Origin: an uncultured Porphyromonadaceae bacterium
GTDB taxonomy: Bacteria > Bacteroidota > Bacteroidia > Bacteroidales > Muribaculaceae
DNA length: 6,531 nucleotides
Assembly (NCBI GenBank): GCA_947174155.1
Contig: CAMWHX010000058.1
Location: 1 to 6,531 of the forward strand
Direction of reading: 5' to 3'
The stretch's first letter is position 1. Each line of letters begins with the position of its first letter. The notes under the pieces are model-generated. The model made no database searches. It was not told the origin of the DNA and was given only the letters and a program-made list of their open reading frames with translations. Shown here piece after piece: positions 1 through 6,531 of this stretch. The translations under genes and the position numbers were made by a program.

Positions 1-1226
1 ACCATGACCCAGAAGGGGGAGAGACCTTCATGGAGACAAAGCCACGCAGCAGGGAGGGTGAGGATCTTTATCGAGTTGGTGACTACGGTATACACTCGGA
101 TATTGCCTATGGCGGCATTGGCCGCGGAGAGATTGGAGGTGGTCATGTCTGTAAGGGCCGAGATAAGAAGTGCGGAGCAGAAAAGTCCCGTATACTCGGG
201 AACCCGTCCCCGCCCGAGCCAGATAGTGAGTATATCTTCCATCTGACAGCATACCGGCACTACAAACATCGTCATCAGGAGAAATGATATCTTACAAGAG
301 CTTTCTGCCAGCATCAGCATTCTCCCTCTGTCCCTGGCTCCCTCGGCCTTCACGATCTGGGGATTTATGGCGGTGGTAAGCGACGTGGCCAGCACACTAA
401 TCTGTGCAGACACCTGAATGGCAAGACCGTAGGCGGCATTGATGACGGTAGAGTAGAAATGATTGAATATAATCTGCACACCCTGGTTGCGTGCCGCCAC
501 ACATCCGGTGCCATATACTGTCCATCCCATAAATGACATCATATCCCGCGTCTGCTTCCACCTGAAGTCTCTCAGCGAGAATACGCGACACTCTTCATAG
601 CGTCGGCAATATGCGAAATAGCATATGAAGTTGACTGCCGTAAGCGATCCGGTCATCACCGCGTACCAGGTCAGACGTCCTGAGGCTATCCATATGAGCG
701 AAAGGGCAATGGGTATCTTCAAAAGGGTATCTACGACCTGCACTGCCGATGAGAAGACGATATTCTCACGGGCTATCAGTACGGCCAGATAGGGGGTGGA
801 GAGGAGGTTGAAGACCAGAGATTCGACCGCAATATAGTAGACGGTCAGAGCCGTGGAGCGCTGCTGTGGGGGTATCCTGAAGAGTCCGGTGTCGAAGAGC
901 CACGGGCCGATGGCAGCCAATATCGCACATAGCGCTACGGTGATGACTATCTGTGTGATAAGGCTGTTGTTAAACAAGGAACGCAGCATATCGGCATCCT
1001 GCCGTCCGTGGTAGAACGACAGGAATCGCTGTATGCTGCGTGCGAGGTTTGACTGTATGAAGGCCAGCATCGAGAGGACCGCTCCGACGAGTGTATATAT
1101 ACCATAGTCATCGGCACCCAGGTATCTCAACACCAGTGAGGAGGTGTAGAGGGTGATGAGCACCGTCAGGCCTGTGCGCAGATACTGCGCGGCGGTGTTG
1201 ACTATGACTCGTGTGGCGGGCCTCAT
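1..1226 (-). CDS. wzx: Wzx-type oligosaccharide flippase (MATE/MOP superfamily), 3' end beyond window
   Basis: This is an integral inner-membrane protein that probably flips an undecaprenyl-linked oligosaccharide repeat unit from the cytoplasm to the periplasm. Translating the minus strand from the ATG at 1224-1226 gives 408 uninterrupted codons to the left edge, with no stop or frameshift. The N-terminus has the pattern of Bacteroidota polysaccharide flippases: a first membrane helix at about 18-35 followed by YLGADDYGIYTLVGAV (35-50). More hydrophobic segments lie near 88-110, 128-150, 160-181, 187-207, 312-328 and 346-363. Family-like stretches are MGWTVYGTG (233-241), NQGVQIIFNHFY (247-258), INAAYGLAIQVSAQ (262-275) and INPQIVKAEG (287-296). 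Related proteins usually have about 480-510 residues, so roughly 70-100 are missing. The gene starts 24 bases after the stop of the secreted propeller gene. AAAGGA lies only 2 bases before the ATG, too close for a normal Shine-Dalgarno site. A multidrug MATE exporter is less likely given the gene neighbours. Confidence 0.9.
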   Translation of the reverse strand, partial: MRPATRVIVNTAAQYLRTGLTVLITLYTSSLVLRYLGADDYGIYTLVGAVLSMLAFIQSNLARSIQRFLSFYHGRQDADMLRSLFNNSLITQIVITVALCAILAAIGPWLFDTGLFRIPPQQRSTALTVYYIAVESLVFNLLSTPYLAVLIARENIVFSSAVQVVDTLLKIPIALSLIWIASGRLTWYAVMTGSLTAVNFICYFAYCRRYEECRVFSLRDFRWKQTRDMMSFMGWTVYGTGCVAARNQGVQIIFNHFYSTVINAAYGLAIQVSAQISVLATSLTTAINPQIVKAEGARDRGRMLMLAESSCKISFLLMTMFVVPVCCQMEDILTIWLGRGRVPEYTGLFCSALLISALTDMTTSNLSAANAAIGNIRVYTVVTNSIKILTLPAAWLCLHEGLSPFWVM

Positions 1227-1250
1227 AATCCTTTAAGTCGAGGCCTGACG

Positions 1251-4136
1251 TTATCTTAGGAGAGTGATAGTCTCCAAAATATTGTTGTCGCTGTCGACCA
1301 CATGATATGCTCCTCCGGGCATGTTGAGTTCGGAGGGACGCCACTGGAGCGCTCCGGCTTTTGCCGCCGGCAGTTCGGCCACTCTGCTACCCTCTGAATT
1401 AATCAGGTAGAGCTGCACACCGGTGGGGACTCCGGAGAGTGTCACATATCCTGCATATCCAGGCTCGATACGACTCGGCACGGCGTGCACGTGTTCGGGT
1501 GTCGGGGTGTCCATACTGTCGGCGGGTGTAAACTCGTAGAGTCCGGTTCCGCAGGAGATCAGGATAGAGTTATTGTCGTAGTTCCACCCCAGTCCGTATA
1601 TGTAGTTGTCTCCAAGGGGGGAATTCTCTGCCGTGAAGTGACCGAGGAGATTCTCGGCTGTCTCATCGAGCCAATAGATACCGTTGACCGTTCCGATCCA
1701 GATACGTCCGAAGGCATCTGTCTTCATTGTGGTCACATACAGCTCATTAAGCGGGGTGATTCCTACGGCATTGGGATTGTCACCTTTCAGCTCTGCGCGG
1801 TGTATGGCCGGAGTGCCGTCAGGCATCAGGTCATTACGGCGGAACCAGTAGAGACCGTTGGGCGTGCCTACCCATATGCGACCGTCGGGTGTGTCAGTGA
1901 CGAGCGTCACCTTGGAGGAGGGGATGATGTGGCCGTGATAGTCCTTGATCATCTCGACGGTCATGATCTCGTCGTCAGATCTGTCATCAAGAGTCCCCTT
2001 GTGGTCATACATATAGACCGTCGGGGGGAAGGTATTGCTCTTGTTGGGGGTCGACACTACGATAGTTGAGTTGGCATCCGATTTCAAGGGTATGGCAAAT
2101 GTGCGGTCCCAGCTTACCCAGCCGTCGATATCGATATATTTCATCGGATGGGCGGCATAGTCCCCTGCTGTCTTCACAGCAAGGCGGTCCTCAGCGGGCC
2201 AGTAATAGAGTCGGGTGGCAAAATCGTTTTTGGCAGCTCGTGTGTAGAGCCAGTAGCCGGCCCAGAGGGTACCTTGATTGTCAAACGCCGGCCGGCTCAG
2301 CGGCACGATGGTATTCCATGTCTCAGCAGGGAAGGCCTCGACATATGACTTGAACTGACGCAGGTCTCCGTCATGGGCGTCCCCGTTAACCAGAGGACGG
2401 GAGAAATTGAGCAGTGCGTCCGGGTCTGAGAGGTCCTGACGGATTAGTCCATAACGACGCGACCACGTATAAACGTGATTGGGGTTCATCGGGTCTATGG
2501 CCAGTCCGGAGGGATTTGTGGCCACGGAGTTGCCGTAGCTGACATTGACTGTGGATCGGTGAGCGAAATATGAGAGCTCGGGGCTGAGAAGATTGGTGCT
2601 GTAGGAGGTCCATTTGCCGTCACGCAGGGCACATAGGGCGTCTGCGCTCTCAAGCGTGCGTATGGTGTTGACGTCGATACCGGCATTGCGCACCATCATG
2701 CCGTAGTCGGGATGCCACTCCATATCGTCTCCGGCAAATACCGTCGGAGCGTTGGGGAGGATACGGGCAGTCTGCTCACCCCAGGTCTTGGCGGTGGGAT
2801 TGTAGGTAATGCTGTAGAATCCGCGGAAGGGTTGATAGCTCCAGAAGTGTGTCAGGTCGTAGGAAGACTTCATGCGGTAGCGGTGGAGATCCTCGCTGTT
2901 CATTATCACACCGGTGGTGATAGTGCCCGAGGGGAGGGCAGGATAAGTGATTGCGCTGTAAGGGGTGGACTTCCAGGCTTTCTTGGTGTAATCATACGCC
3001 ACACCTTCGGTCTTCATCAGGAAGCCGACGTTAAGACCGTCAAACATATAGCCCTCACGGGTGAGATGTGCCACACCGTCAGCTGTGTTTTCTATGCACA
3101 TGGTCAGCCCCTTGTTGAAGACACTGATGGTGTTATGGCGCAATGTGCGCCATATGCCGTCAGGCATACGCACCACTGACCACAGATAATATGATGAAGT
3201 GGCGGAAGCCTCGGACGTAGATGTGCCGTTGCTTTGGCGGCGGTATTCGGATAGCAGGTAGAAGGCTCCTCCCTCGATACCGTCTACCGGATATATGGCG
3301 AAGGGTAGGGGCACCCTCCCCTGCTCGTAGATATCCCAGGCAGCCTTGGTGTAATTGCCGTTGGCATCCTTGACACCGGTGATATCATCGGGGAAGGAGT
3401 TCTCGTCGACTGTAAGGGGGGAGAACTCTTCGATTGATTTCGGGAAGTCTCCCCGGTCCTCGAGCTCATAGAGATTCTTGCCGTCGGAGAGGATCCAATA
3501 TCCGGCCACGCGGTTGAAATCCTGCACCTTGGAGTATGTGCGCATATAGTCCGTGATAGCTCCGTCAGTAGGATCGAGTGCATAGACACCGCAGTCGGTG
3601 GAGATGTAGACTAATCCACGCTGAAGGTCGAAGGATATGCTGTGCGGCTCATGACCGGTCGGCAGGAGCATCCCGGTCAGGCCGTCGCTGTGAGCAGCCT
3701 TGCCGTTGTCCCACAGTATATCGACGGTAGCATCGTCGTTGACGACGACCAGATATCCTTCACGGGAGTTGTAGTTGGCTTTGATGACATTTCGGGGCTC
3801 TATACCGTAGATATCTGCATAGTGCTTCGCTTCCTGATCATCACCGAGGGTCGTGTCGAGACGCCACAGGGTGTAATGAGGAACGTCAAAGGGAGTATTG
3901 GCGCTGTTTTTCAGCAGGGGAGATTCGGCTGCCCAGTAATACACGTAGCGTGGGCCGGCCAGCACCTTGGCCACGTGGGTGGTGTGAAGTGTGGTCTGGC
4001 TGGCATAGTCGAATGAAGGATAATGTTTCCAGGCTCCGCGAGCCGGGGGTGTCTCCTCGGCAATCGCTGCCGAAGCTGTCAGCGCTCCCGTCGACAGGAG
4101 CCCCGATACAAGGCATATGATGGTTTTATTGAGCAT
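1251..4136 (-). CDS. Secreted PorZ-like beta-propeller protein with a T9SS-type C-terminal domain
   Basis: This 961-residue exported protein is probably a multi-propeller surface protein related to PorZ. I chose the ATG at 4134-4136. The frame stays open to a TTG at 4196, but only the ATG puts a classic signal peptide at the N-terminus: MLNK, a hydrophobic core, then ASAAIA-EE, with cleavage after about residue 23 or 26. GAWKHYPSF (34-42) and the YNSREGYLVVVNDDATVDIL stretch (122-141) resemble the PorZ N-terminal propeller. Two-component-regulator-type propeller blades follow near the end: DGRIWVGTPNGLYWF (751-765), FGRIWIGTVNGIYWLD (809-824) and ISCGTGLYEF (860-869). The last ~80 residues (883-961) form a beta-rich tail, PSRIEPGYAGYVTLSGV (887-903) onward, laid out like the PorZ/T9SS C-terminal domain, with PSR where PNP is usual. 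P. gingivalis PorZ is shorter, about 780 residues. The family call rests on remembered patterns, not a search. A stand-alone carbohydrate-binding propeller is the main alternative. Confidence 0.9.
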   Translation of the reverse strand: MLNKTIICLVSGLLSTGALTASAAIAEETPPARGAWKHYPSFDYASQTTLHTTHVAKVLAGPRYVYYWAAESPLLKNSANTPFDVPHYTLWRLDTTLGDDQEAKHYADIYGIEPRNVIKANYNSREGYLVVVNDDATVDILWDNGKAAHSDGLTGMLLPTGHEPHSISFDLQRGLVYISTDCGVYALDPTDGAITDYMRTYSKVQDFNRVAGYWILSDGKNLYELEDRGDFPKSIEEFSPLTVDENSFPDDITGVKDANGNYTKAAWDIYEQGRVPLPFAIYPVDGIEGGAFYLLSEYRRQSNGTSTSEASATSSYYLWSVVRMPDGIWRTLRHNTISVFNKGLTMCIENTADGVAHLTREGYMFDGLNVGFLMKTEGVAYDYTKKAWKSTPYSAITYPALPSGTITTGVIMNSEDLHRYRMKSSYDLTHFWSYQPFRGFYSITYNPTAKTWGEQTARILPNAPTVFAGDDMEWHPDYGMMVRNAGIDVNTIRTLESADALCALRDGKWTSYSTNLLSPELSYFAHRSTVNVSYGNSVATNPSGLAIDPMNPNHVYTWSRRYGLIRQDLSDPDALLNFSRPLVNGDAHDGDLRQFKSYVEAFPAETWNTIVPLSRPAFDNQGTLWAGYWLYTRAAKNDFATRLYYWPAEDRLAVKTAGDYAAHPMKYIDIDGWVSWDRTFAIPLKSDANSTIVVSTPNKSNTFPPTVYMYDHKGTLDDRSDDEIMTVEMIKDYHGHIIPSSKVTLVTDTPDGRIWVGTPNGLYWFRRNDLMPDGTPAIHRAELKGDNPNAVGITPLNELYVTTMKTDAFGRIWIGTVNGIYWLDETAENLLGHFTAENSPLGDNYIYGLGWNYDNNSILISCGTGLYEFTPADSMDTPTPEHVHAVPSRIEPGYAGYVTLSGVPTGVQLYLINSEGSRVAELPAAKAGALQWRPSELNMPGGAYHVVDSDNNILETITLLR

Positions 4137-4210
4137 GATGTACAGGAGATTAAGTATGGAGATTGAAGTGAGGGATATGAGTGAAGAGCTACACAACGGT
4201 GTTAAGAAGC

Positions 4211-4228
4211 TCTGCCTGTCCAGGCAGA
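4211..4228 (-). terminator. Inverted repeat, possible weak terminator or processing hairpin after the epimerase gene
   Basis: TCTGCCTG and CAGGCAGA are perfect inverted 8-base arms separated by 2 bases. As RNA they would form a 7-bp stem with a 4-base loop. The hairpin starts 4 bases beyond the epimerase stop on the minus strand. It is followed by GCTTCTTAAC rather than a clean run of U, so it is at best a weak intrinsic terminator. It could partly uncouple the propeller gene from the genes upstream, or protect the 3' end of the epimerase message. The repeat is plainly visible; its function is inferred. Confidence 0.4.
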
Positions 4229-4232
4229 AATA

Positions 4233-5309
4233 TTATAATCCGTTGTAGTCGCGATACCACTTTGCAAACAGGCCGACCCCCTCAGGGAGCTCAACTTGGG
4301 CGCGATACCCCATATTCTCTTCCAGCTTGCGGGTATCGGCATATGTGGTGTAGACGTCTCCGGGTTGCATGGGTAGCATCTCCATGACAGCCTTGCGACC
4401 CAGTGCATCCTCGAGGGTATGGATGAAGTCCATCAGCTGCATAGGATGGCCGCATCCGATATTGTAGACCTCCGACGGAATCTCACCTGTCGGAGCGGAG
4501 TCAATGACACGGACCACTCCGGCCACAATATCCTCGATATATGTGAAGTCGCGAGAGAGATTACCGTTGTTGAAGACCTTGATCGGTTTCCCCGACATTA
4601 TGGCGTCTGAGAAGAGCATCGGAGCCATATCGGGTCTTCCCCAGGGACCGTAGACGGTGAAGAATCGCAGACCGGTCGCCGGCACACCGTAGAGCTTGCT
4701 GTATACGTTGGCCATGAGTTCGTTGCTCTTTTTGGTGGCAGCGTAGAGCGACACGGGATTGTCTACACGGTCCTCCTCGGCGAAGGGTGTCTTCTCGTTG
4801 CCGCCGTAGACGGAGCTGGAGGAGGCATAGACGAAGTGCCTCACCGGGTTGTGGCGTGCGCACTCGAGGAGTGTGACGAATCCGACAACGTTACTCTCCA
4901 CGTAGGCCATGGGATTTTCGATGGAGTATCTCACACCGGCCTGAGCCGCGAGATTCATGACCGCGTCAAACTTCTCTTCGGCGAATAGCCGCTCCATGGC
5001 TGTGGCATCGCATATGTCGAGGCGGCGGAACGATAGAGCGGGATAGAGGGTACTCGTCAGCGGAGTGTCGTAGGGGATATCGGCATATTCCACCTCGTCG
5101 CGCATCGTGCCGGCACAAGGCTTGGCGACACATTTCGGTGTCTCCGGGTCAATGGTGAATCCCATGCGCTCCAGACGTGCGATTTTAAGACGGGGATCGT
5201 AGTAGTTGTTGAGGTTATCGATACCGATCACTTCATCCCCGCGCGATACGAGGACCTCACAGAGTCGGCTCCCGATAAAACCGGCAGCGCCGGTGACAAG
5301 TACTTTCAT
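4233..5309 (-). CDS. NAD-dependent UDP-glucuronate 4-epimerase-like sugar-nucleotide epimerase
   Basis: This 358-residue cytoplasmic short-chain dehydrogenase/reductase probably interconverts UDP-glucuronate and UDP-galacturonate through a bound NAD, providing an acidic sugar donor for the polysaccharide. The Rossmann motif GAAGFIG is at 7-13 with the ribose-binding acidic D31. AAQAGVRYSIENP lies at 121-133, the active-site serine region YASSSSVYG at 161-169, and the catalytic YxxxK at Y189/K193. RFFTVYGPWGRPDMAP (215-230) and RDFTYIEDI (253-261) are typical of the UDP-GlcA 4-epimerase branch (CapI/LpsL-like) rather than plain GalE. The protein is about 20 residues longer than classic members because of a segment around 52-92, which I recall as common in Bacteroidota homologues. 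It starts 11 bases after the phosphatase stop, with only GAGAA as a ribosome-site candidate, so the two genes are probably co-transcribed. The exact sugar substrate (GlcA or an N-acetylated sugar) cannot be fixed from sequence alone. Confidence 0.93.
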   Translation of the reverse strand: MKVLVTGAAGFIGSRLCEVLVSRGDEVIGIDNLNNYYDPRLKIARLERMGFTIDPETPKCVAKPCAGTMRDEVEYADIPYDTPLTSTLYPALSFRRLDICDATAMERLFAEEKFDAVMNLAAQAGVRYSIENPMAYVESNVVGFVTLLECARHNPVRHFVYASSSSVYGGNEKTPFAEEDRVDNPVSLYAATKKSNELMANVYSKLYGVPATGLRFFTVYGPWGRPDMAPMLFSDAIMSGKPIKVFNNGNLSRDFTYIEDIVAGVVRVIDSAPTGEIPSEVYNIGCGHPMQLMDFIHTLEDALGRKAVMEMLPMQPGDVYTTYADTRKLEENMGYRAQVELPEGVGLFAKWYRDYNGL

Positions 5310-5320
5310 TTCTCTGACGA

Positions 5321-6046
5321 TTAAATGTCCGAATTGCGTGCCAGCATACCGAGCTGGGTATTGATGTCTCGTCGTGAGGGCGCGCGGTCAGCCAGCGTCT
5401 GAAGAGCTGCCAGACGGTGCACGTCGCTGCCGATGACCTCGGCATATCCCTGCTTCAGGAGCCACTCGGCACGTTTGCGTGCCGTCTCGCCATATCCTCC
5501 CGCCAGGGAGAGATAGTTGAGCTGGAAGTGCACCCCGCGTTCACGCAGGCGGTGGTAGTCATCATCGTTCATGTAGCGATAGCGCTCCGGATGAGCGAGC
5601 AGGGGGAAGTAGCCGGCATGAAATATGCGGTCTATTATGTCATCCATCCCCATCGGGGGGTTGAAGTAGGAGGTCTCGACGAGTAGATGATCCTTCTTCG
5701 GCCCGATCGGCAGGAGATCCTTCTTCTCCAGACGCTCCTCAAAGAGGGCGTCCATCATGTTTTCGGCTCCTAATTCGAGTTCGACATTCCCCTTCCATTT
5801 GGCTTGGAGCTGGTCGAAGAGGCGACGGAGCACGTCGGGGGAATTTGGGAAGTCCTCCATGATGTGAGGGGTCAGCCATACCTTGCGGACCCCGTGCTCA
5901 TCCATGAAGCGGAGCACATCGAGAGCGTCATCCATATTGCGGATACCGTCGTCTACCCCGGGAAGTATATGCGAATGCCAGTCGGTCATGCCCTGGAGCA
6001 TTCCCGACTTGGCAAGTGAGTCTACGTGTTTCTTAAAAGGCCACAT
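5321..6046 (-). CDS. PHP-family protein-tyrosine phosphatase (CpsB/CapC/YwqE type)
   Basis: This 241-residue metal-dependent phosphatase probably removes phosphate from the C-terminal tyrosines of the Wzc-type kinase encoded just upstream, resetting the polysaccharide export cycle. It is not the low-molecular-weight Wzb type. PHP motifs are in order: DWHSHILPGVDDG (22-34, metal ligands H24 and H26), TPHIM (59-63, H61), GAE (93-95, E95), VETSYFNPP (123-131, E124), AHPERY (151-156, H152) and GSDVHR (206-211, D208 and H210). All expected metal-binding positions look intact, and the length is normal for the family. The N-terminus (MWPFKK, then a short linker into the first motif) resembles other Bacteroidota members and supports the ATG at 6044-6046. 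The kinase gene ends 66 bases upstream and the epimerase starts 11 bases downstream. The leader directly before the ATG is rich in AC and has no Shine-Dalgarno sequence. Confidence 0.94.
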   Translation of the reverse strand: MWPFKKHVDSLAKSGMLQGMTDWHSHILPGVDDGIRNMDDALDVLRFMDEHGVRKVWLTPHIMEDFPNSPDVLRRLFDQLQAKWKGNVELELGAENMMDALFEERLEKKDLLPIGPKKDHLLVETSYFNPPMGMDDIIDRIFHAGYFPLLAHPERYRYMNDDDYHRLRERGVHFQLNYLSLAGGYGETARKRAEWLLKQGYAEVIGSDVHRLAALQTLADRAPSRRDINTQLGMLARNSDI

Positions 6047-6052
6047 ATTCAG

Positions 6053-6075
6053 CGTGTGTAGTGTGAGTGTGTGTA
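6053..6075. repeat. Short GT/AC-rich low-complexity tract in the kinase-phosphatase spacer
   Basis: The plus strand is almost entirely alternating G and T here, with single A interruptions; the minus-strand transcript therefore reads as an AC-rich leader ending a few bases before the phosphatase ATG. It is an imperfect dinucleotide repeat. It may keep the start region unstructured for a ribosome that does not use a Shine-Dalgarno site, or it may have no function. It is not a clean tandem repeat, so length-based phase variation is unlikely. Confidence 0.5.
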
Positions 6076-6087
6076 TTTAAGTTACCA

Positions 6088-6112
6088 CCCCTCGCGGGGC
6101 GTCGTCTGACGC
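6088..6112 (-). other. Two adjacent small hairpins just after the kinase stop codon
   Basis: GCGTC and GACGC (6099-6103 and 6108-6112) can pair as a 5-bp stem with a 4-base loop. Directly beside it, CCCC and GGGG (6088-6091 and 6096-6099) can pair around TCGC; the two stems share base 6099, so they would compete at that position. They lie immediately downstream of the kinase stop on the minus strand. TGGTAACTTAAAT follows, which is not a U-run, so a standard intrinsic terminator is doubtful. They could act as an mRNA stability or attenuation element between kinase and phosphatase. Confidence 0.3.
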
Positions 6113-6531
6113 TCAGGAGGAGTAATAGTCGCCGGAGGCGTAGTAGTTGCCCGTCTTGCTGTGGATCACTCCGTTGAGCATGACGGTGATGCCATTGTAT
6201 TTCTTGGCCTGACTGAACTTCTCGATGATCGGCACCAGACGTCGGTCTGCAAGTCCGGCACGCAGGATGAAGACGGTGCGTCCGGCATATTGTCCGATTA
6301 GCTGGGCGTCGACCACAATGTCGGAGGGGGGACAGTCTACCAGCACATAGTCGTATTCCTTTTTCGCCTCCTCCAGGAAGTCGGCAAAGGCTTTGGTATC
6401 AAGCAGCTCCGAGGGGTTTGGCGGGCGGTGTCCCACACCGAGCACTTCCATCGAGGGATACTCCTTGTGGGGGACGGTCAGCTTACGCCAATCCTTGGAG
6501 GGGTCGTTGAGATAATCGCTGAGTCCTCGTG
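6113..6531 (-). CDS. wzc: C-terminal part of a Wzc-type bacterial tyrosine autokinase, 5' end beyond window
   Basis: This is the cytoplasmic kinase end of an inner-membrane polysaccharide co-polymerase, which controls chain length and export by cycles of tyrosine autophosphorylation. The open frame reaches the right edge; 138 complete codons are visible, and the in-frame ATG at 6449-6451 is internal, not the start. Visible residues begin RGLSDYLND, the segment that normally follows the Walker A loops. VLGVGHRPPNPSELL (29-43) is a BY-kinase hallmark, and YDYVLVDCPPSD (59-70) holds the Walker B pattern, three hydrophobic residues then D65-x-x-P. The tail NYYASGDYYSS carries four tyrosines (129, 130, 135, 136), the expected autophosphorylation cluster, here short. 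The transmembrane and periplasmic Wzz-like parts and Walker A and A' lie outside the window. The PHP phosphatase encoded next is its likely partner. A MinD/ParA-type ATPase is excluded by the RPPNPSELL motif and tyrosine tail. Confidence 0.93.
   Translation of the reverse strand, partial: RGLSDYLNDPSKDWRKLTVPHKEYPSMEVLGVGHRPPNPSELLDTKAFADFLEEAKKEYDYVLVDCPPSDIVVDAQLIGQYAGRTVFILRAGLADRRLVPIIEKFSQAKKYNGITVMLNGVIHSKTGNYYASGDYYSS

Follow-up and report, generated by a model that had tools for sequence, protein, structure and literature searches.

What is a relative of PorZ, a component of the type IX secretion system (T9SS), doing inside what looks like a polysaccharide operon? The question is raised by a 6,531-nt stretch of DNA (hereafter 'the window', meaning the whole stretch; contig CAMWHX010000058.1, positions 1 to 6,531) from an uncultured Porphyromonadaceae bacterium. 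The gene concerned is an open reading frame (ORF) at 1251-4136 on the minus strand, with an ATG at 4136 and a product of 961 aa; an alternative TTG start at 4196 would give a protein of 981 aa, whilst a plus-strand reading of the same interval holds 16 stops and was rejected. The PorZ of Porphyromonas gingivalis, which we take to be PG1604, belongs to the T9SS attachment complex. It is described as a surface protein that binds anionic lipopolysaccharide (A-LPS) via phosphorylated branched mannan, and its binding to PorU as tighter when A-LPS is present (PMC8545088). The window protein is very probably PorZ by descent, and within that family it stands on a divergent branch; the reading we prefer, to which we give a probability of roughly 0.4, is that it is a PorZ variant acting in the T9SS on the glycan made by this locus.

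The initial annotation had credited the protein with a signal peptide, a PorZ-like N-terminal propeller and regulator-type propeller blades, and all of these are borne out: the Pfam families PF21544 and PF07494 both match above their cut-offs, and the N-terminus is Sec-like when judged by eye (Table 1). The PF21544 match also excludes the case in which a profile search finds no significant PorZ match. By sequence, P. gingivalis PorZ (5m11) is the top match in the PDB (residues 704-921), and a profile of four sequences, namely the window protein (P0001) and its three clade relatives (P0002-P0004), matches the PorZ of Parabacteroides distasonis with 98.7% probability over 246 columns that run through the C-terminal domain. 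In precomputed Pfam assignments PF21544 is given for P0003 and P0004, and not for P0002.

Several points count against the preferred reading. On the NCBIfam PorZ model NF052228, which has a cut-off of 260 bits, P0001 reaches 125.5 bits; two of the six Reg_prop signalling proteins tested (from 11 found), P0006 and P0008, outscore it at 142-146 bits (146.2 and 141.9, the other four giving 59.5-79.9); and the link between the PorZ-like gene and a glycan operon comes from one window and one locus. The clade relatives P0002, P0003 and P0004 score 121.5, 131.9 and 101.8 bits on the same model. Because its score lies below the cut-off, the window protein is filed as a divergent relative and not as that equivalog; and since two of six Reg_prop proteins score as they do, sub-cut-off scores on this model are not specific, and the total score was rejected as proof of PorZ. 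Hidden Markov models (HMMs) were therefore built for parts of PorZ from 38 canonical rows and run on 215 sequences: the clade, the 11 Reg_prop proteins and 200 shuffles. The N-terminal HMM (1-260) found all four clade members (35.6-52.2 bits), none of the Reg_prop proteins and none of the shuffles, and a narrower version (20-140) gave 27.1-41.3 bits for the clade and 7.3-7.4 bits for two of the 11 Reg_prop proteins. The C-terminal-domain HMM found three of the four clade members (16.8-19.9 bits), P0001 being the one absent, with 0/11 Reg_prop proteins and 0/200 shuffles, and the full-length HMM gave 148.0-172.3 bits for the clade against at most 73.8 for the Reg_prop proteins. Among the matches listed, the middle-region and Reg_prop-part HMMs did not separate the groups: the former matched three of the 11 Reg_prop proteins at 25-36 bits, P0001 at 12.1 bits and none of P0002-P0004, and the latter placed several sensors above the clade.

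The comparison with the P. gingivalis PorZ structure that had been proposed as a check was made with two AlphaFold models, one of which was built without canonical PorZ in its alignment. Both models rank 5m11 first, 5m11 leads in four of four fold comparisons, and the next Foldseek matches are 4a2m and 4a2l; both models are of low confidence in the middle region (residues 241-540). The modelled protein would be a double propeller followed by a C-terminal domain, as in P. gingivalis PorZ, and alignment ranges in the first model hint that the second propeller may be closed by an N-terminal strand, the middle being of low confidence. The calcium site of P. gingivalis PorZ has been placed at D520-D530 (PMC5121618). 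Its T523, D529 and D530 correspond to T715, D721 and D722 of the window protein, and the pattern of the site is found in all four clade members, in 119 of 120 canonical PorZ and in none of the 11 Reg_prop proteins; the motif is not universal in PorZ, as P. distasonis PorZ lacks it. The protein thus has in common with P. gingivalis PorZ the N-terminal propeller match, the calcium-site motif and the signal-peptide-like start.

The PorZ/T9SS-like C-terminal domain claimed at the outset stands in part. This region aligns with the C-terminal domain of PorZ, seven strands are predicted in residues 883-959, and its length is 86 aa vs a median of 94 aa in canonical PorZ, but the sorting-tail model TIGR04183 does not match the window protein at E 0.1. 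PorZ, RgpB and HBP35 are described as having a G-V-Y-V/A-V-X-I/V pattern in their C-terminal domains (PMC5121618); near the C-terminus of the window protein the G, Y and V are kept, and the final position is D in all four clade members.

Divergence from canonical PorZ is nonetheless considerable. The N-terminal domain, the calcium-site motif and the position of the C-terminal domain are shared with canonical proteins of ∼790 aa, but the window protein is 185 residues longer than P. gingivalis PorZ (961 vs 776 aa) and differs from it in lying in a capsule-type operon, in falling below the NCBIfam equivalog cut-off and in having no TIGR04183 match. It is 72, 73 and 46% identical to the three metagenomic clade proteins and 19-23% identical to the 37 canonical rows of the alignment. 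Residues 241-540 comprise 300 aa vs a median of 203 aa in those rows, to which their mean identity is 14%; identity to P0002, P0003 and P0004 over the same residues is 72, 78 and 43%, and as the enlarged middle is common to the clade in this way it looks constrained. A maximum-likelihood tree built from 42 rows parts the four clade members from the rest by a branch supported at 100/100, and the clade stem measures 5.29 changes per column vs 1.01 across the midpoint root, the P. distasonis PorZ branch being 4.55.

The same divergence bears on an alternative in which the protein is a PorZ paralogue that has left the T9SS attachment complex and acts as a surface glycan-binder, holding or organising the capsule of its own operon, whilst a canonical PorZ encoded elsewhere serves the T9SS. 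We take this possibility seriously whilst considering it unlikely. The clade stem is long even beside that of P. distasonis PorZ, and the latter is 33% identical to P0005, whereas the window protein keeps to the low identities given above; its C-terminal domain is degenerate, missed both by TIGR04183 and by the C-terminal-domain HMM; and eight credible pairs among canonical PorZ raise the prospect that porZ is duplicated in some relatives. Set against this, the C-terminal domain is kept in the predicted fold and roughly in length, and the tree is itself unsure, with long branches, a skewed composition in the four clade rows and an unsettled bootstrap, and it does not separate a paralogue from a fast-evolving orthologue.

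As to the pairs themselves (P0018/P0107, P0019/P0117, P0020/P0114, P0021/P0049, P0025/P0103, P0026/P0109, P0039/P0061 and P0076/P0118), their members are 52-63% identical and their longest contigs are of equal size, which suggests that some Bacteroidota carry two porZ genes on one contig. The comparison covered 91 of the 120 rows. Equal size is not proof, since a ninth pair shares a length of 3575 bases, which could not accommodate two porZ genes. Six of the 120 rows listed are named Muribaculaceae bacterium; one of these canonical proteins, P0062, passes the NF052228 cut-off with 518.9 bits.

The initial annotation had also placed the gene in a polysaccharide operon, and the Wzc, CpsB, epimerase and MATE/Wzx genes are indeed found on its strand (Table 1). 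Read in the direction of transcription, the genes are the end of wzc, the CpsB/CapC gene, the epimerase gene, the PorZ-like gene and the MATE/Wzx gene, separated by 66, 11, 96 and 24 nt and with a GC content of 0.535-0.569 over the five genes, and together they look like one Wzx-type capsule or exopolysaccharide (EPS) operon; a polymerase and glycosyltransferases, should the operon have them, are encoded beyond the window. The 24 nt to wzx, the similar GC content and the common strand favour shared transcription. The 96-nt gap ahead of the PorZ-like gene has room for a promoter. TAnnTTTG is the Bacteroidota-type promoter motif; within the window it is absent from this gap and from the plus strand, and its one minus-strand match, at 3048, is intragenic. 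The hairpin in the gap was considered as a terminator and rejected: it has no U-run and is unlisted by the terminator scan, and the fold of the gap has a non-significant z of -1.0, with 30 of 200 shuffles as stable. The Wzc end scores below its TIGR01007 cut-off because only 138 aa are present. The neighbour that had been called a UDP-glucuronic acid (UDP-GlcA) epimerase is confirmed as an epimerase of the short-chain dehydrogenase/reductase (SDR) type with YxxxK, but its UDP-GlcA/UDP-uronate specificity is a guess, if a plausible one. Among the plasmid-collection matches listed for the flippase, 27 of 30 records are Bacteroides, Parabacteroides or Phocaeicola, which by itself makes Bacteroidota likely.

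Table 1. Features of the window, with the parts of the PorZ-like protein listed under its gene.
Feature	Position	Strand	Evidence
PorZ-like protein gene	1251..4136	-	ORF; PF21544 and PF07494 above cut-off; 5m11 E 2.4e-17; 5m11 first in four fold comparisons
Signal-peptide-like N-terminus, residues ~1-25	4062..4136	-	Sec-type by eye
PorZ N-terminal propeller match, residues 99-216	3489..3842	-	PF21544 PorZ_N 31.5 bits, cut-off 27
Enlarged middle region, residues 241-540	2517..3416	-	~100 aa longer than canonical PorZ of the alignment
Calcium-site motif of propeller 2, residues 714-722	1971..1997	-	Pattern shared with canonical PorZ
Reg_prop blade, residues 796-818	1683..1751	-	PF07494 32.9 bits, cut-off 20.4
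T9SS-type C-terminal domain, degenerate, residues ~884-961	1254..1487	-	Alignment to PorZ; seven predicted strands
C-terminus of Wzc-type tyrosine autokinase, 138 aa, cut by window	6113..6529	-	TIGR01007 73.5 bits, cut-off 108.05
CpsB/CapC tyrosine phosphatase	5321..6046	-	PF19567 125.5 bits, cut-off 27; YwqE and CpsB structures
NAD-dependent sugar-nucleotide epimerase, SDR with YxxxK	4233..5309	-	PF01370 198.3 bits
Short perfect hairpin in epimerase/PorZ-like gap	4212..4227	-	Sequence
MATE/Wzx-type flippase, runs off window	3..1226	-	PF01554 37 bits, cut-off 24.9

The presence of a porZ variant in a glycan operon agrees with a model whereby glycan and handler come from the one operon. Under the preferred reading the PorZ-like gene would be expressed together with the Wzx-type capsule or EPS operon, whose glycan perhaps contains uronic acid; the double β-propeller protein would be exported and reach the surface through the T9SS, where its propellers may bind the polysaccharide, or a lipid-linked glycan, of the same operon and present it to a PorU-type sortase, with T9SS cargo being anchored to the operon glycan in place of A-LPS. 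Tannerella forsythia PorZ is reported not to bind the A-LPS of P. gingivalis, and PorZ ligands differ between species (PMC8545088); deletion of porZ in Flavobacterium johnsoniae is reported to reduce surface colonisation and abolish biofilm formation (PMC10936215). A wider proposal, that there is a PorZ subfamily of glycan receptors encoded in capsule/EPS operons, with cargo attached to or displayed via a Wzx-made glycan of uronic-acid type rather than A-LPS and with an enlarged middle that is glycan-specific, is doubtful. A porZ relative beside the genes for what may be its glycan would provide a PorZ ligand outside P. gingivalis that can be tested, and a genetic means of finding out to which surface glycan T9SS cargo is anchored. 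Among the titles and abstract openings listed by searches of the PorZ/T9SS literature, none names a porZ in a capsule operon, which is not proof of absence.

Three capsule loci, taken from the best plasmid-collection matches and not from a survey, were set beside the window. In L008 (P. distasonis) Wzc, CpsB, rfb genes, a UDP-sugar dehydrogenase and an epimerase are followed by a flippase cut by the end of the stretch; the epimerase is 48% identical to that of the window and precedes the flippase as it does there, but the two flippases have little in common (18% over 160 aa, E 0.008). L009 (P. distasonis) holds Wzc, CpsB, an SDR that is 31% identical to the window epimerase, a dehydrogenase, an acyltransferase and, annotated as 'hypothetical protein', the flippase match, and L010 (Phocaeicola massiliensis) holds Wzc, CpsB, a 535-aa ORF (P0136) and MatE. 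These three Wzx-type loci share with the window the order Wzc, CpsB, other genes, flippase, whilst the sugar genes differ. No porZ is annotated or matched in the three stretches. The strain of L009, P. distasonis TSDC17.2-1.1, has its porZ (760.7 bits) in another record, where the genes run leuS, YitT, purine nucleoside triphosphate (NTP) diphosphatase, porZ, acyltransferase. Given these three loci and a P. distasonis porZ near leuS, the arrangement in the window is unlike them, and a second locus that shares it was not found.

This comparison lends something to the view that the gene is an ordinary, fast-evolving porZ brought into a polysaccharide operon by chance rearrangement and with no functional tie to the glycan: capsule loci of similar order do without porZ, the P. 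distasonis gene has no capsule genes in its stretch, and the 96-nt gap sets the PorZ-like gene apart from the epimerase. We think it quite unlikely, however, as the gene lies between two same-strand cassette genes, 24 nt from wzx and with similar GC content. P0136, at 5214-6821 of L010, has CpsB on one side and the flippase on the other, a place similar to the one that the PorZ-like gene occupies; Pfam gives nothing for it at E 0.001.

That the protein is a Reg_prop sensor-type propeller like BT4663, resembling PorZ through shared blades only, is very improbable: hybrid two-component sensors of this type (4a2l) do share Reg_prop propellers with it, two of six signalling proteins outscore it on NF052228 (142-146 bits), 4a2m and 4a2l come next in Foldseek and the Reg_prop and middle HMMs separate nothing, but its Pfam matches at E 0.1 include no Y_Y_Y, kinase, regulator or other sensor domain, the calcium pattern and the N-terminal HMM (1-260) each pick out the whole clade and none of the 11 Reg_prop proteins, and 5m11 is top in every comparison of the predicted fold.

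The three clade relatives came from a word-based protein search in which ∼8000 candidates were scored and relatives below ∼45% identity were, by our estimate, probably missed, so that the rarity of the clade is not firm. Pattern searches of genome contigs with P0001 and alignment A1 gave 7 and 35 matches, and those of viral contigs with A1, A6 and P0001 gave 30, 173 and 1; none was confirmed, tblastn being used for the genome contigs. The plasmid-collection protein search returned one record, P. distasonis porZ. The record NZ_OY725801.1 (L002, 6133-18069), 255 kb in length and classed as a plasmid of P. distasonis, carries leuS, porZ and nadA, and on account of these genes it looks chromosomal.
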